Below are positions 7,114 through 46,363 of a DNA stretch of 64,000 nt, one piece after another. The notes under the pieces were generated by a model. That model did not search any database. It worked only from the letters and a program-made list of their open reading frames with translations, and was not told where the DNA came from. Source of the DNA: Malaciobacter molluscorum LMG 25693 (GTDB lineage: Bacteria > Campylobacterota > Campylobacteria > Campylobacterales > Arcobacteraceae). Every line of letters begins with the position of its first letter. The first letter of the stretch is position 1. The position numbers and the translations under genes were made by a program. The stretch lies in contig NZ_CP032098.1 in assembly GCF_003544935.1 (NCBI RefSeq), positions 1,240,001-1,304,000 on the forward strand. The letters run 5' to 3'.

Positions 7114-7120
7114 ATAAAAT
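7114..7120 (+). promoter_or_regulatory. Putative -10 box for the aroB operon
   Basis: The sequence GATAAAAT lies about 28 bases before the aroB ATG, after a strongly A/T-rich stretch and without a clear -35. This matches the G-N-TATAAT-like -10 element used by the main sigma factor in Campylobacterota. It is the only good candidate in the 170-base divergent gap with the BCCT gene. Confidence 0.45.
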
Positions 7121-7148
7121 CAGGCAAATTACACTAAATGGATTTTTA

Positions 7149-8186: not shown

Positions 8187-9865
8187 TGAAAAAAAGCTTT
8201 ATTTTGAAGACCCTTTTTGTATTAATTATATTAAATATTAGTTTATTTGCACAAACTTCTACAAATGAAGATAGTGAAAAAAATCTTACTATTCAAGAGA
8301 AACAAAATAAACAAATAGTTGCAAAACAAAAAGCATTAGAACAAAGGAGTATGAAAGATTTAGCTCAAATTGGTGTATTAAGAAATAAAATAGAAAATCT
8401 TGATGAAAAATTAAAAGATAATATTTTATTAAAAAGATATAGTAATTATATTGCCTATAGAAAAATTTCAAAAGAGTTAGCACTTTTACAAAAGAGTGCA
8501 AAAAGAAGAAAAAGTAAAACTGATGAAAGTTATTCTCAATTAAATAACAAAATAAGAATAAAACAAAATGAGTTAGAACTTATTTCTGAATATAAAGGCT
8601 CACCCATAGGAAGTCTTTTAAGTCCTCCTGAAATAGGAAAATATGAAGAAATAACTAATCCTTTTGGGATAATAAATGCTCTTTCTTATATAAAAAAACT
8701 TGAAAATGATAAAAAAGAATTTATTGAAGTTGAAAAAAATCTGAAAAAATTAGTTGCTTTATTAGAAGAAAAAGTTTTTTTATATCTTGAATTGTATAAT
8801 TTAGATCAACAAAAAGAGTACAAAGATATTCTAAGTTTTTTAGATAAGCAAAAAAAAGATTTTAATATGGTACTAGAAATAGTATCAACAACAGAAGAAG
8901 TATATACAAGAAAAGTAGAACAAGTAACATTAGAGATAAAATCTCAAATTTCAAATCAAGTTGAAAAGATATTTGGTTTATTAATTTTTATATTTTTACT
9001 TTTCTTTATTACTTTTTTAATTAAATTAGCATTGAAAAAGTATTTTTCTCAAAATGAGAATTACTATTTTACAAATAAAATAATAAACTTTTTAGTTGTA
9101 TTAACTATTGTGTTTATTATTCTTTTTTCATATATAGACAATGTATCTTATGTTGTTACAATCTTGGGATTTGCATCAGCTGGTATTGCAATTGCTTTAA
9201 AAGATTGGTTTATGTCTATATTTGGATGGATGGTTATTGTAACATCTGGTTCTATTCAAGTAGGAGATAGAATCAAAGTTACAAGAAATGGTCTTGAAGT
9301 TGTAGGAGATGTTCTTGATATTTCATTATTTAAAATGACAATAAGAGAAGATATTACTCTTACATCATATACTGTAAATAGAAGAACTGGAAGAATCTTT
9401 TTTATTCCAAACAATTATGTTTTTTCTGAAATGATTGCAAATTATACACATTCAGGATTAAGAACTGTTTGGGATGGAATAGATATAACAATCACTTTTG
9501 ATTCAAATTATAAAAAAGCACAACATATAGCAAAAGAGATTTTAAAACATTATTCTAAAGGTTATACTGATATTACAAGAACACAGCTATCAAAAATGAG
9601 AAATAAATATCAACTAAGAGCAACGGGAGTCGAACCTAGAGTTTATACTTTTGTTGAGCCTTATGGTATTGTTATTTCCTCTTGGTATCTTACGAATTCT
9701 TATGCAGCATTAGTTCTAAGAAGTACAATGTCGCCTGAAATTTTAAAAGCTTTTATGAAAGAAGATGATATTCATATTGCTTATCCTACTCAAAGTATTA
9801 ATCTTAATACAAAAAGAGAAAAACCAGCAGATTTACCAGATGTAGAAGAAGGCAAAACTATATGA
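8186..9865 (+). CDS. MscS-family mechanosensitive channel with long periplasmic N-terminus
   Basis: This is an inner-membrane channel that opens under hypo-osmotic tension. It has 559 residues: a signal peptide (ending near SLFA, about residue 22), a long charged region of some 235 residues with strong coiled-coil character that should be periplasmic, membrane segments near 262–284 and 300–360, and the MscS pore and beta domain (ASAGIAIALKDWFMSIFGW, then GDRIKVTRNGLEVVGDVL). The C-terminal cytoplasmic part holds an extra segment that small MscS proteins lack. It overlaps aroB upstream by one base and mtaB downstream by four bases (ATGA). A second, shorter MscS gene lies at 26451. Confidence 0.9.
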   Translation: MKKSFILKTLFVLIILNISLFAQTSTNEDSEKNLTIQEKQNKQIVAKQKALEQRSMKDLAQIGVLRNKIENLDEKLKDNILLKRYSNYIAYRKISKELALLQKSAKRRKSKTDESYSQLNNKIRIKQNELELISEYKGSPIGSLLSPPEIGKYEEITNPFGIINALSYIKKLENDKKEFIEVEKNLKKLVALLEEKVFLYLELYNLDQQKEYKDILSFLDKQKKDFNMVLEIVSTTEEVYTRKVEQVTLEIKSQISNQVEKIFGLLIFIFLLFFITFLIKLALKKYFSQNENYYFTNKIINFLVVLTIVFIILFSYIDNVSYVVTILGFASAGIAIALKDWFMSIFGWMVIVTSGSIQVGDRIKVTRNGLEVVGDVLDISLFKMTIREDITLTSYTVNRRTGRIFFIPNNYVFSEMIANYTHSGLRTVWDGIDITITFDSNYKKAQHIAKEILKHYSKGYTDITRTQLSKMRNKYQLRATGVEPRVYTFVEPYGIVISSWYLTNSYAALVLRSTMSPEILKAFMKEDDIHIAYPTQSINLNTKREKPADLPDVEEGKTI

Positions 9866-11130
9866 TATTTTCAAACACTAAACCAAAAGTATATTTTAAA
9901 ACTTTTGGTTGTAGAACAAATGTATTTGATACTCAAGTTATGATGAGTAACTTAAAAGATTTTGAAGTTGCAAAAGATGAAAAAGATGCTGATATTGTTG
10001 TAATTAATTCATGTACAGTTACAAATGGTGCTGATTCAACAGCAAGAGGATATATAAATCAGTTAAATAAACTTCCGAAAAAACCAAGAGTAGTGTTCAC
10101 AGGATGTGGAGTTTGGACAAAAGGTGAAAGTTTATTTAATGAAAATAAAGTTGATTCTTTATTTGGACATAGTGAAAAAGAGAAAATAAATGATTTATTA
10201 AAAGATGAAAATAGATTTTTTAAAGCTGGTGATTTAGAACATATTGATGAAACTATTGTAGAAGAGTTTATTGGTAAGAGTAGGGCCTTTATTAAGATAC
10301 AAGAAGGGTGCGATTTTAGATGTAGTTACTGTATTATTCCTTATGTAAGAGGTGATGCAAGAAGTTACAATGAAACAAAAATATTAGAACAAGTAGAAAA
10401 ACTTGCAAATAATGGTTTTGGTGAATTTATTTTAACTGGAACAAATGTAGGAAGTTATGGGAAAAAACAACATACATCTTTAGCTAAACTTCTTAAAAAG
10501 ATGTCTCAAATAAAAGGTGTAAGAAGAATTAGAATGGGTAGTATTGAACCTATTCAGATTGATGATGAATTTAAAGAAATAATAAATGAACCTTTTATGG
10601 CAAAACATCTACATATCGCACTTCAGCATACATCTAAAGAGATGTTGCAAATAATGAATAGGAGAAATAAAGTTTTAAAAGATTTAGAACTTTTTGAATT
10701 TTTAAGAGATAATGGTTATGCTTTAGGAACTGATTTTATCGTAGGTCATCCAGGCGAAACAAATCAAATTTGGAAAGAAGCCATAGAAAATTTACATAAT
10801 TTTCCTCTTACTCATGTTCATGCATTTACGTATTCAAAAAGAGATGGAACACCAAGTGCAACTATGAAAGATATAGTAAAAGGTGATGTTGCAAAAGAAA
10901 GATATAAAGAACTTGTATCTATAATAGATAATAAAAATTATGAGTTTAGAAAAAATAATAAACAAACATTAGAAATATTAATAGAACAACAAAAAAATGG
11001 AAAATATGTAGGACTTGATCAGTTTTTTAATCATATTGAGGTTGATAGTTCTGTTGATTTAACTGGTGATTGGATTTTCTTAGATAAATATGAAGTGAGG
11101 CAAGATACAAATGTCGCAAAATTCGAATAA
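9862..11130 (+). CDS. mtaB: tRNA t6A37 methylthiotransferase MtaB
   Basis: This is a radical-SAM enzyme that adds a methylthio group to N6-threonylcarbamoyladenosine at tRNA position 37. The N-terminal methylthiotransferase domain shows its three cluster cysteines in FGCRTN, NSCTVTN and TGCGVW. The radical-SAM cluster motif CxxxCxxC is in GCDFRCSYCIIPYVRG. The TFGCRTN start and the NSCTVTN motif favour the MtaB branch over MiaB or RimO, and the 422-residue length agrees. The C-terminal part looks like a reduced TRAM region. It overlaps both neighbours, so the operon is translationally coupled. Confidence 0.92.
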   Translation: MIFSNTKPKVYFKTFGCRTNVFDTQVMMSNLKDFEVAKDEKDADIVVINSCTVTNGADSTARGYINQLNKLPKKPRVVFTGCGVWTKGESLFNENKVDSLFGHSEKEKINDLLKDENRFFKAGDLEHIDETIVEEFIGKSRAFIKIQEGCDFRCSYCIIPYVRGDARSYNETKILEQVEKLANNGFGEFILTGTNVGSYGKKQHTSLAKLLKKMSQIKGVRRIRMGSIEPIQIDDEFKEIINEPFMAKHLHIALQHTSKEMLQIMNRRNKVLKDLELFEFLRDNGYALGTDFIVGHPGETNQIWKEAIENLHNFPLTHVHAFTYSKRDGTPSATMKDIVKGDVAKERYKELVSIIDNKNYEFRKNNKQTLEILIEQQKNGKYVGLDQFFNHIEVDSSVDLTGDWIFLDKYEVRQDTNVAKFE

Positions 11131-30661: not shown

Positions 30662-31762
30662 TTGACAGTTATAGAGTTATTTCAAAAATTATTAAGATTT
30701 AAATCAATTACACCAAATGATGATGGAGCTTTTGATTTTATAGAAGAGTATTTGGGTGATACTTGGTCATGTATAAAAGTTGATATGGAAGGTGTAAAAA
30801 ATAGATTTTATTATAAAAAATTCAACGATAAAAAACAACACTTATGTTTTGCAGGACATATTGATGTTGTACCTCCAGGTGAGGGTTGGGATGTTGATCC
30901 CTTTGCTGCTGATATTATAGATGGAGTAATTACAGCACGTGGAACACAAGATATGAAAAGTGGTGATGCTGCTTTTTTATATGCTTGTAAACATGCAGTT
31001 GATTTTGATGGAACTTTAAGTATTTTGATGACAAGTGACGAAGAGGGCGAAGGAACTTATGGAACTATCAAAATGCTTGAACACCTAAAAGAAATAAACT
31101 TTATACCAAATTATGCAGTGGTAGCAGAACCAACTTGTGAAGAAGTTTTTGGTGATGCAATTAAAGTAGGACGAAGAGGAAGTATCAATGGCTATATCAC
31201 AATAAAAGGTAAACAAGGACATGCAGCATATCCTGAAAAATGTATAAACCCAGTACATAATTTTGCAGAGATTTTACCAAAATTAGCTGGACATAACCTT
31301 GATGATGGAGATGAATATTTTGCTCCTTCAAAAATGGTAATCACTGATATAAGAGGTGGTATGCAAGTAACAAATGTAACGCCAAATGAACTAAAACTTA
31401 TGTTCAATGTAAGAAATTCAACTAATACCACAAGAGAGTCTGTAGAAGAGTTTATCCATAAAAACCTAGAAGGTTTAGAATATGATTTTAGAACAACACA
31501 AGGCTCATTTCCATTTGTGACAAACAAAGAATCAAAAGTGGTAAAAGCTATGGAAAATTCTATAAAAGAGGTTTTAGGAGTAACAACAAAACACTCAACA
31601 CATGGTGGAACTTCTGACGCCAGATATTTTGGAGCCTTTGGAATAGAAGCCATAGAGTTTGGAGTTATAAATGATACTATTCACTCTGTAGGTGAGAGAA
31701 CAACTGTTAAAGAAGTAGAGGGATTAACTGCTGTTTATGAGGATTTGATTAAAAACTTTTAA
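30662..31762 (+). CDS. dapE: Succinyl-diaminopimelate desuccinylase
   Basis: DapE hydrolyses N-succinyl-LL-diaminopimelate in lysine and peptidoglycan precursor synthesis, using two zinc ions in the cytoplasm. Family M20 motifs are present: FAGHIDVVPPGEGW (first metal His and Asp), DMKSGDAAF, and TSDEEGEGTYG with the catalytic glutamate pair. HGGTSDARYF near the C-terminus matches DapE. The 366-residue length is normal. The start is TTG directly after AGGAGAGGAAT, a strong ribosome binding site, which decides it. The gene stands alone between the divergent DUF748 gene and the ORF6N gene. Confidence 0.95.
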   Translation: MTVIELFQKLLRFKSITPNDDGAFDFIEEYLGDTWSCIKVDMEGVKNRFYYKKFNDKKQHLCFAGHIDVVPPGEGWDVDPFAADIIDGVITARGTQDMKSGDAAFLYACKHAVDFDGTLSILMTSDEEGEGTYGTIKMLEHLKEINFIPNYAVVAEPTCEEVFGDAIKVGRRGSINGYITIKGKQGHAAYPEKCINPVHNFAEILPKLAGHNLDDGDEYFAPSKMVITDIRGGMQVTNVTPNELKLMFNVRNSTNTTRESVEEFIHKNLEGLEYDFRTTQGSFPFVTNKESKVVKAMENSIKEVLGVTTKHSTHGGTSDARYFGAFGIEAIEFGVINDTIHSVGERTTVKEVEGLTAVYEDLIKNF

Positions 31763-31844
31763 ATTTAATTACATTATGTAATATTTTTTATTATTTCTAA
31801 AAAACATTGATAGAATTACTTTATATTCATTATGGAGTAGTTCT

Positions 31845-32430
31845 ATGGAAAACTTACCAAAACAATTGATTGAAAATCAAATCTATGATATTCGTAACTT
31901 AAAAGTGATGTTAGATAGTGACTTGGCAACTCTTTATCAAGTAGAAACTAAAAGAATAAATGAAGCTGTTAAAAATAATCTTGATAAATTTCCTGAAGAT
32001 TTTTATTTTGAATTGACAAAAGAAGAGCTTGAAGTTTTGCGGTCACAATTTGTGACCACAAAGTTTTCCAAAACAAGAGCTATACCATACGCTTTTACCG
32101 AGCAAGGCGTCTATATGCTTGCAACTGTACTAAAAAGCAAAGTTGCTACAGAAGTCACTATAAATATCATGCGTACCTTTACAAAGCTTAGAGAGTTTGC
32201 ACTTACATATAAAGATATAGTAATAGAATTAAAAAATCTAAAAGAAGATTTGAAACTAAATAAAAATCAAACAATAGAAAATACTAAACATATCAAAACC
32301 GCCTTTACAGGAAACTTTTTGCTAAAGCAAAACCGTATATACTAGTTTTGAACTGCTCACTCAAATACTTGAAGATACAAAAAAGACAGATGATAAAGTG
32401 ATGGGGTTTAGACCTGAGAAAAAAAAGTAA
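31845..32430 (+). pseudogene. ORF6N-domain protein, frameshifted near the C-terminus
   Basis: The ORF6N domain is a DNA-binding module common in phage antirepressors and mobile regions. The N-terminal 110 residues are typical: IYDIRNLKVMLDSDLATLYQVETKRINEAVKNN... and TRAIPYAFTEQGVYMLATVL. The open frame stops at 32345 after KTAFTGNFLLKQNRIY. A normal family C-terminus (FELLTQILEDTKKTDDKV, then MGFRPEKKK) follows in another frame and stops at 32430. The two join smoothly if about 43 bases (32307–32349) are removed, so a short insertion seems to have broken the gene. A shortened 166-residue protein could still be made and might bind DNA. A ribosome binding site (GGAG) precedes the ATG. Confidence 0.75.
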
Positions 32431-32437
32431 TTTTTGT

Positions 32438-32443
32438 TATAAT
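32438..32443 (+). promoter_or_regulatory. -10 box for the 1245-residue protein gene
   Basis: TATAAT lies 25 bases before the ATG, after a T-rich run and the end of the ORF6N remnant. AAAAGGG supplies the ribosome binding site. Confidence 0.55.
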
Positions 32444-32468
32444 AGATATATCTAAAAAAAGGGATTAG

Positions 32469-35400
32469 ATGAGTTGGAAAGTTACTGCAAATGATATAAA
32501 AAATTGGTCTCTAACAAATTCTAGAGAAGCACAAGAAACATTACCAAAATTAGTTAAAAATCTTATATTAGCTACTTCAAGTCCAAAGTATATTGATTTA
32601 CCATCAGGTGATAGTATTCAAGTTGGTGGATGGGATGGTGTCTTAAATGTAGAAGAAGGTAATAGTTTTATACCAAGTGGAGAATCTCGTTGGGAATTTG
32701 GAACAGATAAGAATATCAACCCTAAAGCAGAAAAAGATTATAAAAAAAGAACAGATAGTGAAGCGAATTTAAATCAATCATATATATTTGTTACAACTCA
32801 AATTTGGAATAAAAAACAAGAATTTGAAAAAAATAAAAATCAAGAAAATAAATGGAAAGAAGTTCGAGGTATAAATGCTAGTGATTTGGAAACTTGGTTA
32901 GAACTTGCACCAGCAGTACATAGATGGTTTTCAAAGTCGATTGGAAAAAGACCAGAAAATGCTTTAGATATAAAAGAAGCATTTAGTAGGTGGAGTAATC
33001 AAACAGAGATTAAACTGTCAAAAGACTTAGTAATTTTATCAAGGGAAGAAGATAAGAAAAAACTGATAGAGTTTTTAGAAGATATACCTTCAAAAATAGT
33101 GATAGTATCACAAAGTGAACAGGAGAGTTATATCTTTTCTATATCTGCATTGTTAGATGAAGAAAAATTTTCAAATAAAGTTTTAATTGTAGAGTCCCAA
33201 AATGAATGGGATAATTTAATTTCATCAAAATATAGTTTAATTTTAATTCCTCAGAATTTTTCACCAGTCAATATAGGTCAAGCAGTAGCTAATGGTCATT
33301 TTGTAATACAGGCAGAGGAAGAAATAAATTCTAAAGAAGATAGCAGTAAAAAAATAAATCTAAAAAAAATATGGAAAGAACAAAAATCAAAAGTACTAGA
33401 AGATATGGGTTTGGATATACATAAAGCTTATGAACTTTTAAATGAAACTAAAGGTTTTTTACATGCCATTGAAAAACATAGATTTTTAAAACCTATAGAA
33501 AGTTATCATATTCCTTTGTGGGTAGAAGAGTTTGATATAAATATTTTATCGACAATACTATTTATAAATAGCTGGAATGGTGAGAATGAACATGATAAAA
33601 AAATATTAGAGTCATTATCTGAGTTAAGTTATTTAGAGTTTGAAAAACATTTAGAGTCACTAAAGGTCAAAAAAGAATCTCCAATTAGAAAAGTTGGTAA
33701 TATATGGCAAGTTATATCTAAAGTCAATCTTTGGGATTTAATTTCAAATAGAATACCAACTAATCAAATTGATAAACTAGAAGATATTTTAATTGAAATT
33801 TTTGGTGAAATTGACCCAATATTTGCAGTGGATAAAAAGAAAAGATTTTATACTTTTGATAAAAAATTAAAATATAGTGGTTTGATTAGAGAAAGTTTGG
33901 CAGATACAATATGCTTAATATCAGCATTAGGAAAAAATAATTTGTCATATTCAAAGGATATTAATAAGACACTTTCCAACTGGCTGGAAAAGCTATATAA
34001 TAAAAACCTAAATGTAGAGTCTTGGTATTCTTATCACCATCAACTAATATTATTAGCAGAAACTGATCCTAGTAGTTTTTTAACAGCTTTAGAAAAAACT
34101 ATTGATAATGCAAAGAATCAAATTGAAAAACTTTTTGAGAGTGAAGATTTTATGACTCAAGGATGTGACCATTGTGATTTAGTATGGGCATTAGAAACTA
34201 TATCGTGGAATGATGAATATATTATAAGGATAGTTAGACTTTTAATTAAACTAAGTAAAATAGAAATTAAAATGAATATATCCAATACTCCTTTTAATAC
34301 ATTAATACATATTTTTTTAGGTTGGATAAATTATAGTAGCTTGAATTATGATGAAAAGATTCAAATACTTGAAAATATAATGCTAAAAGAAGATTTTGAT
34401 ATTACTTGGAAGCTTTTAATAGAGCTTTTACCAGATAGGTTTTCATCTGCATCTCCCCTTCATACACCAAAATATAATATATGGAATGAAAAGCTACCAT
34501 TAGAAGTATTTCAATCTGATTATTATAATTATGAAAATGAAATATGTAGAATACTTTTAGAAAATACAAATGAAAATGTAAATAAATGGGCTAATATATT
34601 TGAAAATATAGATAAGTTTACAGATGAATATTTTATTAAAGTAAATGAATCTTTTTGTAAATTAGATATAAATACATTTAGTGAAAAAGATAAATTAAAA
34701 ATAGCTACAATTATTAGAGAAAATATTCATAATCATAAAAAATATGCTAATTCAGATTGGACAAGGGAAAAAGATGAGATTGAAATTTTGGAAAAATCTT
34801 TTTATTTTATAGAACCACAAAATTTAGTTTATAAATATAAGTATTTATTTGAAGATTTTTATCCAAAAGTATTAAATCTAAAAACTAGAGATGATGATTT
34901 TGAAAGAGAGGACAGAGAGTATGATTCATTACGAATAGATGCTTTAAAAGAAATATTAAAATATAAAGATTTTGATACATTATTAAATTTTATTAGTGAA
35001 TGTAAGTATCCAAATATTATTGCAAAAACTTTTGCAAAAACTGATGTAACTAGTTTAGATAGTAAAATTTATGATTTAATAAAAAGTGAGGATAAAAGAT
35101 TCTTAGAATTTGTACAAGTGTATATAAGTAGTTTGTATTTTAATAATAAGCTTGAAATAGATAATGAGTTTTTATCCAAATATGCAGATGAAGAACAAGC
35201 AAAAGTTTTATTATCATTGAATTTTAAGTCTAAAATATTTGAACTTTTAAAAGAGTGTAGTGAAAAAACACAAGAATATTACTGGCAAAATAACAATAAT
35301 TATTTTTTATTAGACGATGGAGATTTAGATTATTTTAAATGGGTATTTGAACAGTTGTTAAAGTTTAATAGACCTATGAAAGCAGTTGATTTTGTTTATA

Positions 35401-36206
35401 TGGTTTTACAGTTAGAAAAAAAAGGGAAAATTATAAATATTGATTTAGATTTAATACATCAAGCATTAATTTTGTTAGCTACAAAGGACAATGGAGAAAA
35501 TTTAACTCATTATGAGATTCATGAAGTTTTAGAATATTATCAGAACAATAGTACAAATATTAACAAAAATATTGAGCTTGAATGGATATATGTAAGTTTT
35601 GATGATTTTAAACCTTTAAATATAGAGCAAAAAGTGATAGAAAGTCCAGAATTTTTTGTCGAGTTAATATCGTATATTTATAAATCAGATAGAGGGCGAG
35701 AGAAAGAAGAAAATTTAACAGATGAGCAGATAAAAATTAGAGCTGAAACAGCTTGGAAGGTTTTAGAAAAGCTTTCTTTATTTTCTGACCATATTAAAGA
35801 AAAGAGTTTAAATAGTGATTATTTAAAAGATTGGGTTATAAAAGCACAGGAATTGTTTAAAAAAGTTGATAGAGTCAAGATAGGTGATGATAAAATAGGA
35901 CAAATATTATCAAAATCTCCTAAAGGAAAAGATGATATATGGCCTTGTGAATCAGTAAGAGAAGTATTACAATTGAGCTGGAATAAAACAATAGAAACAG
36001 GATTATTAGTAGGTAAAAAAAATCAACGAGGATTTGTATGGAGAGATAAAGGTGGAAAACAAGAGTACAAGTTAGCAAAACAGTATAAGGATGATGCACA
36101 AAAAATAAAATATAAATATCCAAAAACTTTTGAACTTTTAATCACTCTTTCAAAGTGGTATGAAGATGACGGTAAAAGAAAAGATTTAGAAGAAGAATTA
36201 AGATGA
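32469..36206 (+). CDS. 1245-residue hypothetical protein, nuclease-like N-terminus (defence candidate)
   Basis: The protein is not assigned to a known system. Its first 165 residues hold conserved-looking islands: VGGWDGVLN (Asp56), SRWEFGT (Glu76), a lysine-rich stretch to residue 93, and YIFVTTQIWNKK. The spacing of acid, Glu and Lys resembles a PD-(D/E)xK nuclease core, and I recall similar N-termini on very large uncharacterised proteins. The region about 205–280 has the shape of a Rossmann-like domain but no Walker A motif. The remaining 950 residues are helical and repeat-like. No membrane segment is seen. It lies in an accessory strip after a broken ORF6N gene, which suggests a mobile or defence role; that is inference. 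Confidence 0.6.
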   Translation: MSWKVTANDIKNWSLTNSREAQETLPKLVKNLILATSSPKYIDLPSGDSIQVGGWDGVLNVEEGNSFIPSGESRWEFGTDKNINPKAEKDYKKRTDSEANLNQSYIFVTTQIWNKKQEFEKNKNQENKWKEVRGINASDLETWLELAPAVHRWFSKSIGKRPENALDIKEAFSRWSNQTEIKLSKDLVILSREEDKKKLIEFLEDIPSKIVIVSQSEQESYIFSISALLDEEKFSNKVLIVESQNEWDNLISSKYSLILIPQNFSPVNIGQAVANGHFVIQAEEEINSKEDSSKKINLKKIWKEQKSKVLEDMGLDIHKAYELLNETKGFLHAIEKHRFLKPIESYHIPLWVEEFDINILSTILFINSWNGENEHDKKILESLSELSYLEFEKHLESLKVKKESPIRKVGNIWQVISKVNLWDLISNRIPTNQIDKLEDILIEIFGEIDPIFAVDKKKRFYTFDKKLKYSGLIRESLADTICLISALGKNNLSYSKDINKTLSNWLEKLYNKNLNVESWYSYHHQLILLAETDPSSFLTALEKTIDNAKNQIEKLFESEDFMTQGCDHCDLVWALETISWNDEYIIRIVRLLIKLSKIEIKMNISNTPFNTLIHIFLGWINYSSLNYDEKIQILENIMLKEDFDITWKLLIELLPDRFSSASPLHTPKYNIWNEKLPLEVFQSDYYNYENEICRILLENTNENVNKWANIFENIDKFTDEYFIKVNESFCKLDINTFSEKDKLKIATIIRENIHNHKKYANSDWTREKDEIEILEKSFYFIEPQNLVYKYKYLFEDFYPKVLNLKTRDDDFEREDREYDSLRIDALKEILKYKDFDTLLNFISECKYPNIIAKTFAKTDVTSLDSKIYDLIKSEDKRFLEFVQVYISSLYFNNKLEIDNEFLSKYADEEQAKVLLSLNFKSKIFELLKECSEKTQEYYWQNNNNYFLLDDGDLDYFKWVFEQLLKFNRPMKAVDFVYMVLQLEKKGKIINIDLDLIHQALILLATKDNGENLTHYEIHEVLEYYQNNSTNINKNIELEWIYVSFDDFKPLNIEQKVIESPEFFVELISYIYKSDRGREKEENLTDEQIKIRAETAWKVLEKLSLFSDHIKEKSLNSDYLKDWVIKAQELFKKVDRVKIGDDKIGQILSKSPKGKDDIWPCESVREVLQLSWNKTIETGLLVGKKNQRGFVWRDKGGKQEYKLAKQYKDDAQKIKYKYPKTFELLITLSKWYEDDGKRKDLEEELR

Positions 36207-36225
36207 TGAATAGATAGGAACAAAT

Positions 36226-36462
36226 ATGCCATTTTCAAAAGAAGAAAAACAAAAGCTTTTAGAAGTAAAGTTTGTGGGTGAAACCGTTATAAGAAGATTC
36301 GAGCAAATAGGTATTGATTCTTTAGAGGTTTTATCTAAAAGTAGTGTGGAAGAGATTACGGATATTGTTTCAGATATTTTGGGAAGCAGTTGTTGGAAAA
36401 ACTCTCCCCAAGCTAAAAAAGCGGTGCATAATGCCATTGATTATGCTAAATCTATCCAATAA
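36226..36462 (+). CDS. Small helix-hairpin-helix protein
   Basis: This 78-residue protein is one helix-hairpin-helix domain: LLEVKFVGETVIRRFEQIGIDSLEVL carries the hairpin, and SSCWKNSPQAKKAV is a conserved tail in related small proteins (the Cdd1-like pathogenicity-locus group). Such domains bind DNA without sequence specificity or act as protein adaptors. It starts 20 bases after the large gene before it, so co-transcription is possible. Exact role is unknown. Confidence 0.75.
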   Translation: MPFSKEEKQKLLEVKFVGETVIRRFEQIGIDSLEVLSKSSVEEITDIVSDILGSSCWKNSPQAKKAVHNAIDYAKSIQ

Positions 36463-36492
36463 ATTTAAAAATTAAAAAAGAGTTAAACAATA

Positions 36493-36846
36493 ATGAACTT
36501 AGAACAAATAGAATCTATATTTATGGCTAAACAAGGTGCAACAAAAGATTTTCCTTTTGGTGATGATACTATGGTTTTTAGAGTTATGGATAAGATGTTT
36601 GGTCTTATTAGTTTAAAAACAACTCCATTAAATATAAATTTAAAATGTGATCCCAATGATGCAATAGCCTATAGAGATATTTATGAGTGTGTAAATCCAG
36701 GTTATCATATGAATAAAAAGCATTGGAATACTATAACCTTAGATGGGACTATGAAAGAAGAGACAGTAAAAGATATGGTCAATGAATCATATGATTTAAT
36801 AGTATCGAAACTAACAAAAAAACAAAGAGAAGAGTTACTTTTATAA
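36493..36846 (+). CDS. MmcQ/YjbR-family protein
   Basis: The 117-residue protein matches the MmcQ/YjbR fold, often described as DNA-binding by fold similarity. Signatures are the N-terminal KDFPFGDDTMVFRVMDKMFGL, the LKCDPNDA motif, and PGYHMNKKHWNTITLDG. It has a start after AAAGAGTTAAACAATA and lies 30 bases after the helix-hairpin-helix gene. No partner is known; biochemical function in the family is not settled. Confidence 0.85.
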   Translation: MNLEQIESIFMAKQGATKDFPFGDDTMVFRVMDKMFGLISLKTTPLNINLKCDPNDAIAYRDIYECVNPGYHMNKKHWNTITLDGTMKEETVKDMVNESYDLIVSKLTKKQREELLL

Positions 36847-36915
36847 AAAATATAAATACGAGAAAGTACTCCATCACAAAAAGTGCAGATGATTTTTATG
36901 AGTTAAAGGAATTAA

Positions 36916-37374
36916 ATGCAAATAATAAAATATGATAAAAAATATAAAAAAGAGATTCCAGAACTTTTTACAAATACTATTCATAAAACATGCAATAAAG
37001 ACTATACAAAACAACAATTAAACGCTTGGGCAAATTTGCATATTGATTATAAGTCTTGGGAAGAAAGATTAAATAAAACAAAACCATATTTGGCAATACT
37101 TGATGAAAAGCTTGTAGGTTTTGCAGAGTTTTATGAGGATTATATTGATTGTTTTTATGTACACTATGAGTATCAAGGTTTTGGTGTAGGGAAAATGCTT
37201 TTAAATCATATTTTTAAAATAGCAAAAGAGAAAGAACAAACTTTATTAAGAGTAGATGCAAGTATCACTGCAAAGCCATTTTTTGAGAAGTCTGGTTTTA
37301 TAGAAGTAAAAAAGAATAAAGTCATAAGAAATAATATAGAGTTAATAAATTTTAGTATGCAAAAAGTATTATAA
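36916..37374 (+). CDS. GNAT acetyltransferase (YafP-like)
   Basis: This 152-residue protein is a GCN5-type N-acetyltransferase. The acetyl-CoA binding loop is in EYQGFGVGKMLLNHI, preceded by the usual beta strands (LVGFAEFY, DYIDCFYV) and followed by FFEKSGFIEVKKN. The N-terminal pattern TNTIHKTCNKDYTKQQLNAWA is like YafP. Acceptor substrate cannot be inferred. The ATG follows AAAGGA. In the 69-base gap before it, another frame reads TRKYSITKSADDFYELKE, perhaps a remnant of a lost gene. Confidence 0.85.
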   Translation: MQIIKYDKKYKKEIPELFTNTIHKTCNKDYTKQQLNAWANLHIDYKSWEERLNKTKPYLAILDEKLVGFAEFYEDYIDCFYVHYEYQGFGVGKMLLNHIFKIAKEKEQTLLRVDASITAKPFFEKSGFIEVKKNKVIRNNIELINFSMQKVL

Positions 37375-37401
37375 TTAAAAGGCAATGAGTATTTATACTC
37401 A

Positions 37402-37938
37402 TTATCCTTCATAATCTTCTATTTTAAAACTATTAAAAAGTATGTCTGTTGCATACATTCTTGCACCATGATTTAAGGCATCTAATATATCTTTATCACT
37501 CCAACTTTGTGCTTTTAGTTCATTTATTATGTTTTCATCTACTTTGTGTGGATTTTTAACTGAATCAATTACAAATTTTAAAAGAGTATTTTCCTCTTTT
37601 GTTAATTTTTTACTATATATTTCATTTTTTAAAGTATTTATATCTTCAATACTCCATTTTGCCTTATTTATAAGAAGTGCAGAATTAAAATCAATACAAA
37701 AGCTACATCTTTCTTGATTAGATACACAAACTCTGATACTTGCAAGTAAAGGCATCGATAAAGTTTCATGATTTGCATAATATTTAATAAATTCAAGTTG
37801 TTGTCTTAATAATTCAGGACTAGAACTAAAAAGTTTAGCATTGTTTCCTATTTCACCTCTTAGTTTTATTATCTCTTCATATATCTCTTGTAATTCACCA
37901 GTTGCTTCTTCTTTTTCATAAGTTTTAATTAATGGCAT
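37402..37938 (-). CDS. AhpD/carboxymuconolactone-decarboxylase-like protein
   Basis: The 178-residue protein is all-helical and carries the family's redox pair CSFC (Cys78 and Cys81) in QERCSFCIDFNSA, as in AhpD-type peroxidase partners. It is probably a cytoplasmic thiol peroxidase or a related detoxifying enzyme; substrate is unknown. GAGGAATAAAT precedes the ATG. It is transcribed divergently from a TetR regulator, with a palindromic operator between, so the regulator probably controls it in response to an electrophile or oxidant. A shorter CMD-type gene with the same redox motif occurs at 54942 next to another regulator. Confidence 0.85.
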   Translation of the reverse strand: MPLIKTYEKEEATGELQEIYEEIIKLRGEIGNNAKLFSSSPELLRQQLEFIKYYANHETLSMPLLASIRVCVSNQERCSFCIDFNSALLINKAKWSIEDINTLKNEIYSKKLTKEENTLLKFVIDSVKNPHKVDENIINELKAQSWSDKDILDALNHGARMYATDILFNSFKIEDYEG

Positions 37939-37979
37939 ATTTATTCCTCATATTTAACTAGTAAAAGAATAATACAATA

Positions 37980-37999
37980 ACTTGACCTACTTGTCAAGT
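37980..37999. promoter_or_regulatory. Palindromic operator for the TetR-type regulator
   Basis: A perfect inverted repeat with seven-base arms, ACTTGAC – CTACTT – GTCAAGT, lies between the divergent genes. It is next to the minus-strand -10 (TATTAT on the minus strand, 37974–37969) and in the -35 region of the plus-strand -10 (TATAAT, 38009–38014). A TetR dimer bound here could repress both. Binding is inferred from position and symmetry. Confidence 0.7.
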
Positions 38000-38008
38000 A
38001 AAAAATGT

Positions 38009-38014
38009 TATAAT
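38009..38014 (+). promoter_or_regulatory. -10 box of tetR, five bases before the ATG
   Basis: TATAAT is followed by ATTTA and the start codon. No ribosome binding site fits between, so a leaderless transcript is likely. Confidence 0.6.
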
Positions 38015-38019
38015 ATTTA

Positions 38020-38592
38020 ATGGAAAAAAGAACAAGAAATAATTTAATAGATTCAGCTTTTAAAGAGATATATGAAAAGGGGTACCAAGGTGCTTCTATG
38101 ACAACTATTTTAAATAATGCAAAAGTGCATAAAGGATCAATGTATCACTTTTTCGCAAATAAAAAAGAATTAGCATTAGTGTCTATAAAAGAGAAAATTT
38201 ATGCAAAATTTGTACAAAGATATACTTCAATTTTACAAAATGAATCAAACTATTTAGAAACTTTTATTGAAAGTTTAAAAGATATTACCCAAAGAGATTT
38301 TAATAAAGGTTGTCCTATCGCAAATGTAATACAAGAGATGTCAAATCTTGATAGTGATTTTAAAGTTTTGATGGAAAAAATTTATTTGTCTTTTAGAAAA
38401 AATATAAAAGATATTTTAGATAAAGCAGTTGAAAAAAAAGAGATGAAGCAATGTGATACTACAAAACTTGCACTTTACATAGCTTCAACTTTAGAAGGTG
38501 CAATACTTTCTGCAAAAGCAACAGGAAATATACAAGACTATTTAGATGTAGTAGAAATACTTTCTACTTATATTTTATCTTTTCGTTTATAA
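38020..38592 (+). CDS. TetR/AcrR-family regulator
   Basis: The 190-residue protein has the TetR N-terminal helix-turn-helix: KEIYEKGYQGASMTTILNNAKVHKGSMYHFFANKKELAL. The C-terminal ligand domain has a QRDFNKGCPIANVIQEMSN stretch like regulators of the NemR/YcdC-type branch, with one cysteine (in KGCPIAN) in a position that could sense electrophiles. It is divergent from an AhpD-like gene with an operator between. The -10 box is five bases upstream of the ATG, so translation is probably leaderless. Its stop lies directly against the remnant of a kinase gene, marking a deletion or insertion junction. Confidence 0.9.
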   Translation: MEKRTRNNLIDSAFKEIYEKGYQGASMTTILNNAKVHKGSMYHFFANKKELALVSIKEKIYAKFVQRYTSILQNESNYLETFIESLKDITQRDFNKGCPIANVIQEMSNLDSDFKVLMEKIYLSFRKNIKDILDKAVEKKEMKQCDTTKLALYIASTLEGAILSAKATGNIQDYLDVVEILSTYILSFRL

Positions 38593-41126: not shown

Positions 41127-43616
41127 ATGTCTAGCAAAATAGAAAATATTACTAAACAACTGCGATCAGAAATCAACCAAAACATAAAAGCAAGAATAAG
41201 ACTAATAAACTATAGAAGTGACTTGCCAGATATACTAAATGAGAGTTTGAGTGTATATAAACTAAATGGTATTAGTAAAGTAAATAGTCCATATGAATTT
41301 GAAGTAGTATTTGTAAGTGAAGAGTTTATAGAAATAGAAGATATAGTAGATACAGATGTAGAACTAATAATACAAGATGAAATAAACCCAATAGATAAAA
41401 AAAGTATCTATGGAAAGATTTATGAAGCAAGTGAAGATAGTGTAGTAGCAAAAAAATACCTTTATAAAATAAAAATAGTATCTCCTTTGTATTATCTTGG
41501 ATTAAATAATAGATATGAGATATATCATGAAAAAAAAGTAAGTACAATATTTAGTGAAATAATAAATAAATATAACCAACTGTTAAATATAAATGTAGAT
41601 GTAAAAATAGATATAAAAAATGAAGTAACAAGAGAATATACAACCCAATATAATCAAAGTGATTTAGAATTTCTAACAATGCTATGTGAAGAAGAAGGTT
41701 ATAGCTTTATAGTAGAATACTCATCAAATAATCCATATAATATAGTGCTTTGTAAACTAACAGAACATGCAATAATAAATAGCTATAGTAGTGTAAGCCA
41801 ATTTAATCATAGTAAAAGATTCACAGCAACTAATATAATAGAAGATTATTATGATTACTCAAATCCAAGCTTGGAATATAAGATACAAACAGGAGCAGCA
41901 ATAACTTCTAGTATAAAAGATAATCAATCAACAAGTCAATTAAGAGTAGATATAAAAAGAAATAACCTAAGAGATAAACTAAATGTGCTAGATGAGAGTC
42001 TTTATAAAGATTTGGATAAATATAATAAAATAGAAGCTAAAAGAGAATATGTAAAATCAAACTTGATAAAAGGAACTAGCCAAGAATTAGTAATAAATGA
42101 TAGTTTGAATATAGAATTAGAAGATGAAAGAGCAAAAAAAGTATTTGATGTAATTATCCTTGAAGTAAAATATAATGGGATCTTTCCAAATGCATTGGAT
42201 GAATATATACAAAATGTAAATGAAAAGAAAAAACATGAACTGCAATATGAAGTAGAATTTACTTCAATTCCAAAAGATATAGATTATGTTCCAGCATATA
42301 CAATAATAAAACCAAAAATAAACTCAGTACAAACAGCAATAGTAGCAAGTAGTAATAGTAATACAAAAGAAGATGCGAATACAATAGATGTAGATGAACA
42401 AGGAAGAATAAAAGTATTGTTTCACTTTGAAGAGAATAAAACAATATCTTGTTATTTAAGATACTCAAACTTCTTTGCAGGTAATAATTATGGAGCACAA
42501 TTTCTACCAAGAGTAAATAGTGAAGTAATAGTAAGCTTTGTAAATGGAGATGTAGATAAACCAATAATAATAGGAAGCTTGTATAATGGAGAGAATAAAG
42601 TACCATATAACCTTCCAAAAGATAAAACAAAGAGTTATATCAAAACAAACTCAATGCCACAATATGAACATAAACAAGGGTATAATGAGATATTGTTTGA
42701 AGATAAACAAGGTGAAGAGTTACTATCATTTAGAGCACAAAAAGATTTAAAAACCCATGTGTTAAATGATGAATATAAACATATAGAGAATAACTCAAAA
42801 CTATTAGTAGAAAATGATAAAGAAGAGACAATTCAAAAAGACTCAATCATAACAGTAGGAGAAGAGGAAAGAAAGAGTATAAAAGCAAACAAGATTTTAA
42901 CTGTTGAGAAAGAATCTATTACTACTATTAAAAATGATTGTGAAGAACACTATAAACAAAACTTAGAAACACTAATAAAACAAAATGAAAAGACATATTT
43001 AGAAAGAGATGTAGAACTTAGAATCAAAAATATCTTGCATAAATATATTCAAAAAGATGTAACAGATAAATACTTACAAAACCTATTTGTAAAAATAGGA
43101 AAAGAACTAAGAGTTGATATAGAAGATGGCTTTCATCTAAATACAAGTGATTTGAAAGTACAAGCTTCAGATAATTGCTTATTTGATGGAGCAAATGGTA
43201 TAAGCTTTAAATGTGGAAGTAATATCCTAACAGTAGATGCAAGTGGTATTCACTTTAATACTCAAAACTTTGTAGATAATAGTGCTAATGGTGGAGTAAG
43301 TGTTGAGGATGTAATAAATAAAGGTGCGATTATTGATTTAAGAGCAAATGATTCTTTTAGAGACTACATCTATGATATACAAGAAGATGAATATGTATTA
43401 AGAGCTAACTCTTCATTAAAAGATGGAACAAAAGTAGAAGCTTCTTGCTTTATTTTAGGTAAAGAAAAAGAGATACTTGCAAAAGAGATTAAAACAATTA
43501 GTGTTGAAAACTCTAAATTAGAAGCAAGATTTGATTTAGATGAAATAATTCATTTAAATCAAATACCAGAAAGTAAGATCAAAAATATAAAAGGAATATT
43601 TTCATGGCAGAATTAA
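41127..43616 (+). CDS. vgrG: Type VI secretion tip protein VgrG with C-terminal extension
   Basis: VgrG forms the trimeric spike tip that carries effectors into target cells. The 829-residue protein shows the gp27-like N-terminal half (LSVYKLNGISKVNSPYEFEV, YEIYHEKKVSTIF, QYNQSDLEFLTMLCEEEGYSF), the gp5-type OB domain (VDEQGRIKVLFHFEEN, then FLPRVNSEVIVSFVNGD), and a long needle repeat region rich in charged residues. After about residue 730 comes a further beta-rich extension of 100 residues, probably the docking site for the cargo encoded next. No tssA–M, hcp or PAAR gene is in the window, so this is an orphan vgrG island. The stop overlaps the effector gene by 13 bases. Confidence 0.94.
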   Translation: MSSKIENITKQLRSEINQNIKARIRLINYRSDLPDILNESLSVYKLNGISKVNSPYEFEVVFVSEEFIEIEDIVDTDVELIIQDEINPIDKKSIYGKIYEASEDSVVAKKYLYKIKIVSPLYYLGLNNRYEIYHEKKVSTIFSEIINKYNQLLNINVDVKIDIKNEVTREYTTQYNQSDLEFLTMLCEEEGYSFIVEYSSNNPYNIVLCKLTEHAIINSYSSVSQFNHSKRFTATNIIEDYYDYSNPSLEYKIQTGAAITSSIKDNQSTSQLRVDIKRNNLRDKLNVLDESLYKDLDKYNKIEAKREYVKSNLIKGTSQELVINDSLNIELEDERAKKVFDVIILEVKYNGIFPNALDEYIQNVNEKKKHELQYEVEFTSIPKDIDYVPAYTIIKPKINSVQTAIVASSNSNTKEDANTIDVDEQGRIKVLFHFEENKTISCYLRYSNFFAGNNYGAQFLPRVNSEVIVSFVNGDVDKPIIIGSLYNGENKVPYNLPKDKTKSYIKTNSMPQYEHKQGYNEILFEDKQGEELLSFRAQKDLKTHVLNDEYKHIENNSKLLVENDKEETIQKDSIITVGEEERKSIKANKILTVEKESITTIKNDCEEHYKQNLETLIKQNEKTYLERDVELRIKNILHKYIQKDVTDKYLQNLFVKIGKELRVDIEDGFHLNTSDLKVQASDNCLFDGANGISFKCGSNILTVDASGIHFNTQNFVDNSANGGVSVEDVINKGAIIDLRANDSFRDYIYDIQEDEYVLRANSSLKDGTKVEASCFILGKEKEILAKEIKTISVENSKLEARFDLDEIIHLNQIPESKIKNIKGIFSWQN

Positions 43617-44809
43617 AAGTAACTCAAAGATATAATCCTAAAAGAAGAAGAGTAAAACTCTGTGTTGATTTGCCTAAATTTGAGATGTATAAAGTTCGAT
43701 TTGAAAAAGAAGATAAAACAAATAAAAAAAGAGTTGGAATAAAATGTAATAATGAATATTATACACCCAATTATAATTTTAAAGCAAAAGAGCCATATGT
43801 ATTAGAAATAGATAGTGGATTTATAGGAAATATTTATATAGAAAACCAAGAAAATACGCTAAGCTTTCCAATTTTACAAAGAGGTGAAGAAGAGATAACA
43901 TTAGCCTTAGTTCAACCAAAAGAGAATATTAATAAAAATAATAAAGATTTAAATAAAAAGAAAAATTCTTTTACAAAAGAAGATAACTTAACTTTTTTTC
44001 AAACAACAAATGAATATTTTAAAAATTTAAGAAATGAAGTATATTCAATAACTGATGAAATGAAAGAACAATTTATTATATTGTTTAAAGAGAATAGAAA
44101 TGTAATTTATGGAGTTGTTGGAGATGTATCTCAAGAGTTTTCTTCTTTAAAAGATGGAGTATGGAAAGATATAAAAGAACTAAAGTTTTATATTAAAGAG
44201 ATAAAAGGAAAATCATATGTTATACTTAAAGGATTTGCAGGATTAAGACAGACACTAAAAGGAACAAAATATCTTTTATCAAATCCACAAGTAGGAGCAT
44301 TTGCAGTTACTACAAAAGATATAGTAACATGGAGTTCAATTCTAAATGGAACAAAGATAACTATATTAATTAGTTCAGCATTTTCATTAATTGATTATTT
44401 CACCACAAAAGACGGGAAAGCAGATTTTACAGATATTGCAGTTAATCTTTTAACTGGTATTGGAAAAGCTTTGATTTCTTATTGGGTTGGAACGGCCGTT
44501 GGACTATTAGCAATGCCACTTGTAACTGCAGGTTTTATAGGTGCTTTTGGAATTTTCATAATAGGTGCAGCTATTTCAATTGGTGTAGGAATAAGTTTAA
44601 ATTTATCAGATGAAAAATATGGGTGGACAAAGTCTTTACAAGAAAAAATAAATGAACTTCAAGAATCGTTTAATAAAAAAATAGAACAAATAGAAGAAGA
44701 TGTTGATAATGCAATTTATAAATTTTTTAGAGACCTTGAAAGAGAATTTTGGAATTGGGTTAGTGCAAATGGAGGAACAACACCTTATGACTATGGTATT
44801 AGGTATTAA
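43604..44809 (+). CDS. Type VI effector, probable pore-forming toxin (full length)
   Basis: The 401-residue protein overlaps vgrG and should be its cargo. Residues 1–105 are beta-rich and probably bind the VgrG extension or spike; 105–210 are helical and charged. The C-terminal 190 residues hold hydrophobic segments near 250–268 and 283–335, with a glycine/alanine-rich membrane hairpin between conserved flanks TKYLLSNPQVGAFAVTTKD and TKSLQEKINELQESFN, ending NWVSANGGTTPYDYGIRY. This layout fits membrane-disrupting effectors of the glycine-zipper type. The next gene encodes a multi-pass membrane protein, as expected for immunity to a pore former. The toxin part recurs twice downstream without residues 1–210. 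Activity is inferred. Confidence 0.75.
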   Translation: MAELKVTQRYNPKRRRVKLCVDLPKFEMYKVRFEKEDKTNKKRVGIKCNNEYYTPNYNFKAKEPYVLEIDSGFIGNIYIENQENTLSFPILQRGEEEITLALVQPKENINKNNKDLNKKKNSFTKEDNLTFFQTTNEYFKNLRNEVYSITDEMKEQFIILFKENRNVIYGVVGDVSQEFSSLKDGVWKDIKELKFYIKEIKGKSYVILKGFAGLRQTLKGTKYLLSNPQVGAFAVTTKDIVTWSSILNGTKITILISSAFSLIDYFTTKDGKADFTDIAVNLLTGIGKALISYWVGTAVGLLAMPLVTAGFIGAFGIFIIGAAISIGVGISLNLSDEKYGWTKSLQEKINELQESFNKKIEQIEEDVDNAIYKFFRDLEREFWNWVSANGGTTPYDYGIRY

Positions 44810-44856
44810 AGAATATGGAAAAATTTGAAGAAATATTAAGTCTATTTATTAAAAAT
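44252..44856 (+). repeat. Toxin-module repeat, copy 1
   Basis: From ACACTAAAAGGAAC through the toxin C-terminus and the first 42 bases of the immunity gene, this DNA is nearly identical to 45735–46363 and 47215–47816, except for a variable core of about 150 bases (44476–44630 here). Confidence 0.85.
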
Positions 44857-45702
44857 CCTTATATTCATATACAATTATCTAAAGAATTTTTAAATAGTTT
44901 TAGAGAAAATTTCTTTATACAATTAATTTTATTGCCCATTATTATGGTCATTTTATTAAGTATCTCTATTTCTGTAATCATTACTACTCTAAAGTTTGAC
45001 TTATTTATATATTATCATAAGTTAGCAATATTTTTATATTTTTATATTTTTATATTTTTATTTGGTTTAATATATTATTTTTTTATACTTATTAGAAATT
45101 ATTTTCATTTAAAATATAGATTATTAAGTATTAAAAGTTTTTATATAAAATATATATTTTATTTTACAATGCTTTTACAATTATTTTCTTTATCTTTAAT
45201 TTTTATAATTAAAGGAATACAACCTATTACAATATATTTATACTATCTTACAGCAATTATACTTTTTATTATTTATTACTTTTATTATAAAAAAAAATGG
45301 CAAAAAAATATTTTTATAGATAATTATATTAAATATAAAAAAGAAATATTTAAACTTAATTTTCCAGAAAATTCTTTAAATGGTAAGTTTCAATTGGATT
45401 TAAAAGAAAGTAAAAAAGAAAAACCTATATTTACAAAGATATGGGAACTATTAACTATGCTAATACTTAGGTTTGGTCTTACTTTACCTGTATTAGCATC
45501 TGTTTTTGGAAGTGGTAGTATTAAAAACTATGATGCTACTATTTATTTTTGTGTTTATATTTTTATGTTTATGATACCTGTTTTTGCAAAGAGCATCACA
45601 GGACAAATAGTATTTTATAATTTTATAAAACAAATAGAAAAAGAAGAAAATGTAACTATTTATAACGGTAAATTAAAAACTTTGAATAGTGAAAATAAAT
45701 GA
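44815..45702 (+). CDS. Multi-pass membrane immunity protein 1
   Basis: The 295-residue protein has about six hydrophobic helices and starts five bases after the effector gene. It shares its first 14 residues (MEKFEEILSLFIKN) and a C-terminal stretch ending KQIEKEENVTIYNGKLKTLN with the two later copies, while the middle differs strongly. A polytopic membrane protein paired with each hydrophobic toxin is the classic arrangement for immunity to pore-forming toxins, where specificity comes from contact with the toxin's membrane helices. It would protect sister cells in the inner membrane. No sequence family is recognised. The stop overlaps the next ATG (ATGA). Confidence 0.7.
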   Translation: MEKFEEILSLFIKNPYIHIQLSKEFLNSFRENFFIQLILLPIIMVILLSISISVIITTLKFDLFIYYHKLAIFLYFYIFIFLFGLIYYFFILIRNYFHLKYRLLSIKSFYIKYIFYFTMLLQLFSLSLIFIIKGIQPITIYLYYLTAIILFIIYYFYYKKKWQKNIFIDNYIKYKKEIFKLNFPENSLNGKFQLDLKESKKEKPIFTKIWELLTMLILRFGLTLPVLASVFGSGSIKNYDATIYFCVYIFMFMIPVFAKSITGQIVFYNFIKQIEKEENVTIYNGKLKTLNSENK

Positions 45703-46363
45703 ATTTTATAAAAAAATTTTTAATACTTAGAGAAACACTAAAAGGAACAAAATATCTTTTATCTAATCCACAAGTAGGAGCATTTGCAGTTACTACAAAA
45801 GATATAGTAACATGGAGTTCAATTCTAAATGGAACAAAGATAACTATATTAATTAGTTCAGCATTTTCATTAATTGATTATTTCACCACAAAAGACGGGA
45901 AAGCAGATTTTACAGATATTGCAGTTAATCTTTTAACTGGTATTGGAAAAGCTTTAATTTCTTATTGGGTTGGAGTAGCAATAACAGCTTTAATTGTAGG
46001 TGGTGCCACATTTGTAGGAAGTGTACTAGGAGTAACAGTTGCATTACCTGCATTAGCTATATTTGCTATTGGAGCTACAGTTTCAGTTATTGTTGGTGCA
46101 GTAATGAATTGGCTAGATGAAAAATATGCTTGGACAAAGTCTTTACAAGAAAAAATGAATGAACTTCAAGAATCGTTTAATAAAAAAATAGACCAAATAG
46201 AAGAAGATGTTGATAATGCAATTTATAAATTTTTTCAAGACCTTGAAAGAGAGTTTTGGAATTGGGTTAGTGCAAATGGAGGAGCAACACCTTATGACTA
46301 TGGCATTAGGTATTAAAGAATATGGAAAAATTTGAAAAAATATTAAGTTTTTTTATTAAAAAC
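45628..46363 (+). repeat. Immunity-tail plus toxin-module repeat, copy 2
   Basis: The block begins in the last 75 bases of immunity gene 1 and runs through the orphan toxin into the start of immunity gene 2. It recurs at 47108–47816, 1480 bases later. The core that encodes the membrane hairpin differs between copies. Confidence 0.85.
45699..46316 (+). CDS. Orphan toxin module 2 (effector C-terminal domain only)
   Basis: The 205-residue protein is nearly identical to the last 190 residues of the full effector, but lacks its delivery half. The first ten residues (MNFIKKFLIL) are new; from RETLKGTKYLLSNPQVG the match is almost exact until ISYWVG. Then the membrane hairpin is different (AITALIVGGATFVGSVLG), and identity resumes at about LDEKYAWTKSLQEKMNE and runs to the C-terminal YDYGIRY. 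It starts within the previous stop (ATGA). Without an N-terminal domain it is probably not loaded on VgrG itself. It may be a reserve for recombination into the full gene, or be made to keep its immunity gene selected. Confidence 0.75.
   Translation: MNFIKKFLILRETLKGTKYLLSNPQVGAFAVTTKDIVTWSSILNGTKITILISSAFSLIDYFTTKDGKADFTDIAVNLLTGIGKALISYWVGVAITALIVGGATFVGSVLGVTVALPALAIFAIGATVSVIVGAVMNWLDEKYAWTKSLQEKMNELQESFNKKIDQIEEDVDNAIYKFFQDLEREFWNWVSANGGATPYDYGIRY

Follow-up and report, generated by a model that had tools for sequence, protein, structure and literature searches.

The gene and its product

The gene described here lies in the genome of Malaciobacter molluscorum LMG 25693 (2.8 Mb, one contig, low G+C content), within a 64,000-nucleotide stretch (NZ_CP032098.1, positions 1,240,001 to 1,304,000) which we call the window and from whose first letter all coordinates are counted. 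It is an intact open reading frame (ORF) on the forward strand, present as a single copy in the genome and encoding a protein of 1245 amino acids, the length given in a preliminary description made from the DNA letters. That description took the gene for a single-gene defence effector, a view supported by the fold of the protein, by the variable chromosomal slot in which it sits, by the neighbours of its relatives and by homology to PD-Lambda-4_A, and which we refine in that the receptor appears to be fused to the effector. Our reading, to which we give a probability of about 0.7, is that its product combines receptor and effector against phage in one self-contained protein, from a sister family of PD-Lambda-4_A. 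The gene and its parts, all on the forward strand, are as follows.

32469 to 36206: the gene, with predicted nuclease, P-loop-less STAND-like domain and alpha-solenoid (ORF, models, full-length profile match)
32469 to 32942: residues 1-158, predicted FokI-like PD-(D/E)XK nuclease domain (strand and helix order, FokI alignment, match to the PD-Lambda-4_A N-terminus with P 6.8e-8)
32634 to 32636: codon of Asp56, predicted metal ligand (invariance)
32694 to 32696: codon of Glu76, predicted metal ligand, paired with the Gln that PD-Lambda-4_A homologues have in FQxK (invariance, alignment)
32724 to 32726: codon of Lys86, in the next helix, proposed as a relocated catalytic lysine (invariance; helix 83-98 in the model)
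32958 to 33503: residues 164-345, domain of AAA+/STAND fold without Walker A (structure matches, no P-loop)
33105 to 33134: residues 213-222, VSQSEQESYI, the ancestral P-loop site, with the family motif AxSxxEAxAF in its place (alignment to PD-Lambda-4_A homologues)
33504 to 36203: residues 346-1245, helical alpha-solenoid, proposed sensor (model, Foldseek)

The predicted nuclease domain

An AlphaFold model of residues 1-345 built from 30 sequences had a predicted local distance difference test score (pLDDT) of 91, and its strands and helices follow the order of the PD-(D/E)XK core fold. Residues 1-149 superposed on the FokI cleavage domain (1fok_A, residues 395-560) with a root-mean-square deviation of 4.0 over 135 aligned residues and a Z score of 8.4, which on its own is modest evidence. 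Among the top 50 Foldseek hits there was no PD-(D/E)XK enzyme, the list being probably taken up by the AAA+ part, and FokI emerged only in realignment. The residues singled out in the preliminary description, Asp56 in GGWDG and Glu76 in SRWEFGT with a Lys-rich segment after them, are all present; the model places D56 just before strand 57-61, E76 within strand 71-78 and K86 within helix 83-98. Together with D90 these residues are identical in 29 of 29 homologues inspected, from several phyla, so that the motif cannot be put down to chance, and the nuclease-like start claimed earlier is borne out by a modelled FokI-like fold with an invariant set of Asp, Glu and Lys. This domain turned up in six of the 397 genomes sampled from the phylum, always within intact or split copies of the same protein family.

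The site departs from the classical form in that the position of the E-x-K lysine (residue 78) is held by Gly or Ser, while D56 and E76 are invariant and an invariant K86 follows in the next helix. The corresponding stretch of PD-Lambda-4_A homologues reads GGxD...FQxK, and the simplest reading of the alignment would be that Gln has become Glu and that the lysine has moved into the helix as K86, making the altered site a testable case of a moved catalytic residue. The missing lysine also means that the nuclease could be dead, with the N-terminal domain only binding DNA or relaying a signal; for this speaks the absent E-x-K motif, with Gly or Ser found where PD-Lambda-4_A homologues have their lysine. 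We nevertheless think it unlikely, as D56, E76, K86 and D90 have been kept without exception over great distances, quite unlike the eroded P-loop of the neighbouring domain.

The STAND-like domain and the helical body

Residues 162-345 matched the structures of ClpA, RFC, NSF, Dark, CED-4 and the plant proteins NRC2 and NRC3 (Z 8.4-9.8), and Foldseek added AVAST5 and Apaf-1. The Rossmann-like region without a P-loop noted earlier is thus seen in the model as an AAA+/STAND fold, and at the ancestral position none of 29 homologues showed a Walker A motif; the one AxxxxGKS string, in the relative at locus L062, is incidental and lies elsewhere in the domain. Profile alignment puts the P-loop stretch of PD-Lambda-4_A homologues on SQSEQESY of the window protein, where the family instead has the motif AxSxxEAxAF, with E219 kept in 29 of 30 sequences and F223 in 26 of 30. 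As no homologue has a P-loop at this site and the replacement motif is conserved, the loss is old. On the model, the STAND NTPase in the centre of the protein is degenerate, and to judge from the missing motif its capacity to bind nucleotide at the P-loop has probably been lost. Nucleic-acid binding has been proposed for inactive STAND domains (PMC8195603).

Beyond this domain the model is almost entirely helical, as the long helical remainder of the preliminary description had it, and forms one long array (pLDDT 85 for residues 164-1245). The first Foldseek hit of the body was Avs4 in complex with phage portal (8dgf_A, E 3.4e-5), followed by karyopherins and other HEAT proteins, and the Z scores from VIA-align did not exceed 8.7, reached on the AAA+ part, or 8.0 in other parts, so that the assignment as a solenoid is a general one. 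Kinship with HEAT proteins or karyopherins was considered and dropped, the resemblance being taken as general solenoid similarity. The order of parts, an N-terminal effector, an AAA+/STAND fold and a repeat-type sensor, is that of a STAND or NLR-like protein.

Relationship to PD-Lambda-4_A

In hhalign, an alignment of the family matched one of PD-Lambda-4_A homologues (the two encoded next to family members at loci L029 and L065, with the P-loop-bearing relative L132) with a probability of 99.1 and P 4.4e-19 over 965 columns, and the N-terminal parts alone gave P 1.3e-10 and 6.8e-8. Two control alignments of unrelated large ATPases from related genomes gave P 0.31 and 0.70. In Rhizobium (L029) and Desulfosporosinus (L065) the gene right after the relative is itself PD-Lambda-4_A (PADLOC E 8e-66 and 0, respectively), and the family profiles weakly match both of these proteins. 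The PADLOC model of PD-Lambda-4_A in turn matched two of 26 aligned family proteins weakly (best E 1.5e-5) and the window protein not at all, and PD-Lambda-4_B had no match among the window neighbours scanned, some small ORFs lying outside the scan. The best reading of these alignments is that the window family is a sister family of PD-Lambda-4_A, as yet uncharacterised and lacking the P-loop.

Vassallo et al. 2022 (PMC9519451) carried out the screen from which PD-Lambda-4 takes its name, and a table in PMC10952713 counts PD-lambda-4 as one of their systems and assigns it a P-loop NTPase domain. Its experimental standing is taken here from that table and from its inclusion in PADLOC, a text search of PMC9519451 having found no passage on it.

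Two more distant relatives, L131 and L132, have a P-loop. The former begins with a transmembrane-like segment and adjoins SIR2-like, helicase-like and DUF1016-like genes, and the latter has short TIR-like genes and an integrase-like gene nearby (names assigned by eye).

Effector exchange among relatives

Judged from the sequences, the nuclease is an exchangeable module on a common body, and the tree indicates that the effector changed at least three times. The closest relative, 44% identical over residues 164-1244, has no nuclease and starts with hydrophobic, transmembrane-like segments. Copies in enterobacterial prophages carry on the same body another N-terminus (NPFSTGGGGVHFEAHVQASF...GQIKHS), which we take to be another restriction-endonuclease-like domain. 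The relatives at loci L026 and L038 lack both the nuclease and the STAND-like part and start with QNHTGTGHNVAGD or QTHSGAGHNIARD; 5' of each lies a gene for a small protein that has a similar motif at its end, and the one at L026 matches HetE-N (PF20701, E 1.5e-40). At these loci (L026:7561-10652 and L038:9555-12685), HetE-N-type proteins with C-terminal QNHSGTGDN-type motifs may form amyloid-signalling pairs. In E. coli the prophage variant is annotated as a hypothetical protein in 8 of 5426 genomes, with phage genes such as tail-fibre assembly adjoining, and single-gene, prophage-associated copies were seen at L069:15007-18549 and L071:12007-15549. GiPD474, a Gifsy defence protein (PMC12724215), was considered as kin of the prophage variant and dropped, as it is a ParA-like ATPase.

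These exchanges bear on the idea that the protein is a restriction-type enzyme, which would bind DNA directly, through a helix-turn-helix in many relatives and otherwise through the helical body, and cut foreign DNA in cis with its FokI-like domain and no sensing step. The fold of the nuclease speaks for it, as do the N-terminal helix-turn-helix domains of 16 of the 35 nuclease-type relatives included in the tree, found on plasmid copies too, and the type I restriction genes near some relatives. On the same body, however, the nuclease is swapped for a transmembrane-like segment or a HetE-N-paired motif, which is not how a DNA-recognition module would be expected to behave, the window protein itself has no helix-turn-helix, and no methyltransferase was found beside its gene. 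We regard this explanation as improbable.

The closest relative raises another. Its ATG overlaps with E2, part of a CapV-cyclase-E2 CBASS operon that lies within a type I restriction locus, as might be expected if the body sensed a cyclic nucleotide and the family consisted of CBASS-type effectors. That operon, however, already has CapV as its effector, and no cyclase was found among the window neighbours scanned or is annotated in the plasmid loci, so that we consider a CBASS-type role very unlikely indeed. The operon is of type II-short, with a CapV patatin, a SMODS cyclase and E2 as its last gene, and was recorded at positions 4654-11001 of locus L105 (genome G187), where the restriction locus also has a RhuM-like gene.

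Distribution

A search for related loci with the window protein alone as query found no relatives, and a narrower family alignment did find some. By tblastn, 22 plasmids were found to carry relatives, at 21-26% identity; on 18 of these plasmids the match spans 80% or more of the length of the protein, and 11 of the plasmids are predicted to be conjugative. Others lie on ten viral contigs and on 28 genome contigs, including those of Pseudomonadota, Myxococcota, Nitrospirota, Bacteroidota, Bacillota and Gemmatimonadota. Within the phylum the distribution is patchy, with 10 to 12 of 397 genomes positive (12 by protein search, which includes some fragments or weak partial matches), and the three further genomes of its genus that the first sample contained all lacked the gene. 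Horizontal spread would lead one to expect phyla to intermix, and in the tree of the C-terminal part they do (e.g., Nitrospirota with Paenibacillus at a node value of 100). In genus g16 the gene occupies what appears to be one chromosomal place, intact in one genome (G170) and split in others (G201 and G368; loci L106, L109 and L110), the copies being whole, in two pieces or in four, which looks like decay in progress.

The plasmid copies, half of them on predicted conjugative elements, allow for a target other than phage, namely invading plasmids or competing mobile elements, or for a selfish stability element, and some copies are indeed fused to a HigA-like helix-turn-helix. The PD-Lambda-4_A homologue is, however, listed in PADLOC as a phage-defence family, and prophages carry the gene as cargo; we therefore hold it rather unlikely that the gene is aimed at plasmids or serves only itself.

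Genomic setting

Three further features lie at the start of the gene or ahead of it, on the forward strand.

31845 to 32430: ORF6N-domain gene, frameshifted near its 3' end, a neighbour outside the system (ORF6N; PADLOC candidate family PDC-S05)
32414 to 32443: promoter-like site, TG ahead of a perfect TATAAT at 32438-32443 (consensus match only)
32460 to 32464: AGGGA, Shine-Dalgarno-like, 4 bases 5' of the ATG (sequence)

The start earlier put at 32438 does not stand: it is 31 bp 5' of the ATG and coincides with the TATAAT of the promoter-like site, itself of a kind that a promoter scan of the region found in numbers not above those in shuffled sequence. The broken ORF6N gene was described correctly, its ORF running from 31845 to 32345 with an out-of-frame tail to about 32430, and three sister genomes have intact copies. 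Of the small DNA-related genes mentioned with it less can be kept, as the 78-residue ORF at 36226-36462 matches helix-hairpin-helix only below threshold (E 0.011) and YjbR comes next. The order is thus a dapE-like M20 peptidase gene and the ORF6N gene on the 5' side, and on the 3' side the 78-residue ORF, YjbR, a GNAT-like gene and others. A match to LeoBC among the window neighbours (E 0.0004) was judged to be chance.

What follows dapE is a variable, defence-type slot. The gene is absent from eight sister-genome regions with dapE, where the slot is taken in three genomes by a KAP NTPase of the PADLOC candidate family PDC-S49 (E 1e-156 to 1e-177), in one of them with HipBA as well, or else by NACHT/AAA genes. 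The variable slot, seen in the genus and its relatives, spans window positions 30662-38592 in comparison with loci L097-L104. Among the other relatives of the gene, some have AbiE genes nearby, others a SIR2 gene accompanied by RES/Xre pairs, and others type I restriction genes. PADLOC named many defence families in about 260 neighbour ORFs, but reverse transcriptases and homing endonucleases swell these lists, for which there was no control set, and they do not serve here as a test of enrichment.

Farther along the window, at 41127-46316, a VgrG-like gene is followed by two ORFs (43604-44809 and 45699-46316) that share a near-identical stretch (LKGTKYLLSNPQVGAFAVTTKDIVTWSS...), an arrangement resembling a duplicated type VI secretion cargo module.

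Proposed mode of action

Computation shows the order and folds of the domains, the conserved catalytic set, the missing P-loop, the homology to PD-Lambda-4_A, the exchange of effectors and a location of defence type; beyond this we infer for the protein an antiphage role, and with it the kind of trigger, activation by oligomerisation, a DNA target and an abortive outcome. The alpha-solenoid and the P-loop-less STAND-like domain would recognise a sign of infection, either a phage protein or a nucleic acid, upon which the protein would cluster or rearrange and the N-terminal nuclease be switched on, probably by FokI-like dimerisation. The nuclease would then cut DNA, and most likely the infection would be aborted. 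FokI cleaves as a dimer, and this fits activation by clustering. The division of labour, with sensing by the solenoid and STAND-like domain and action of the nuclease on activation, is suggested by analogy with Avs and NLR-like proteins. Clustering without ATP might come about by ligand-driven assembly or by nucleic-acid binding, as proposed for inactive STAND domains.

Several observations weigh against a receptor-effector for phage defence. Neither the window protein nor the family profiles had a meaningful match in Pfam, PADLOC, NCBIfam or the PDB sequences, and the PADLOC check suggested in the preliminary description turned out negative, with no family matching the protein at E values up to 1. 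The only meaningful PADLOC match among the window neighbours scanned was that of the ORF6N gene, to a candidate family; the nearness of relatives to defence genes comes with no enrichment statistic or control set; some relatives with an N-terminal helix-turn-helix are annotated as transcriptional regulators; and the classical nuclease lysine is missing. An arginine-repressor match in the PDB (E 0.39) and a 2OG-oxygenase match in NCBIfam (E 0.01) were both taken as chance.

As the family is missing from the libraries used here, counts of defence systems that depend on such libraries would overlook it in several phyla. A broader proposal, which we put forward tentatively and at slightly less than even odds, is that it represents a widespread and so far undescribed branch of NLR-like bacterial immune receptors without an ATP switch, which swaps effectors, from the FokI-like nuclease with its relocated lysine to a membrane domain, a second type of nuclease or an amyloid-type link to HetE-N, and signals infection without nucleotide-driven assembly. 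The exchange of effectors offers natural comparisons for finding the trigger.

Comparison with known systems

The FokI cleavage domain shares its fold with residues 1-149 of the window protein, but the lysine is placed differently and a FokI-like DNA-recognition domain was not found. Paired effector and NLR genes of the BASS type (PMC8086366), in which a motif at the effector C-terminus corresponds to one at the NLR N-terminus, resemble in layout the L026 and L038 relatives with their HetE-N neighbours; this likeness is limited to those relatives, as the nuclease of the window protein is fused.

The inactive STAND domain as a proposed sensor and the exchangeable N-terminal effector or adaptor domains recall iSTAND (Kaur et al. 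2020, PMC7159879), iSTAND2 (2021, PMC8195603) and BrxB/BrxF (PMC12839542). The iSTAND systems have three components, with MoxR and vWA genes as partners, whereas the window gene stands alone: its immediate neighbours are the dapE-like, ORF6N, YjbR and GNAT genes, and no MoxR or vWA gene is annotated in the annotated plasmid loci.

Like Avs4 and Avs5 of the Avs/AVAST systems, the latter of which was also matched, the window protein unites an effector, a STAND fold and a helical sensor in a single chain. Avs proteins have a working STAND NTPase, in which they differ from it, and the superposition is weak (VIA-align Z 6.5 for Avs4), so that no common ligand can be claimed.

With PD-Lambda-4_A (PADLOC PDLC03991) the likeness extends to a similar length (about 1280 residues), an N-terminal PD-(D/E)XK-like nuclease, a STAND-type domain, a helical C-terminus and a common linker rich in conserved Trp (..D...I..W...P.V..W..). 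The PD-Lambda-4_A homologues have nuclease residues of the form D..QxK, which the window family lacks, having K86 and D90 in addition, and they keep a P-loop (GLSGVGKT and GASGLGKS, with GFSGIGKT in the relative L132) which the window family does not. NLR receptors, whether of plants, animals or bacteria, are regarded as ATP/ADP switches, and a P-loop-less family homologous from end to end with a defence protein that keeps its P-loop would permit a direct test of the role of that switch.

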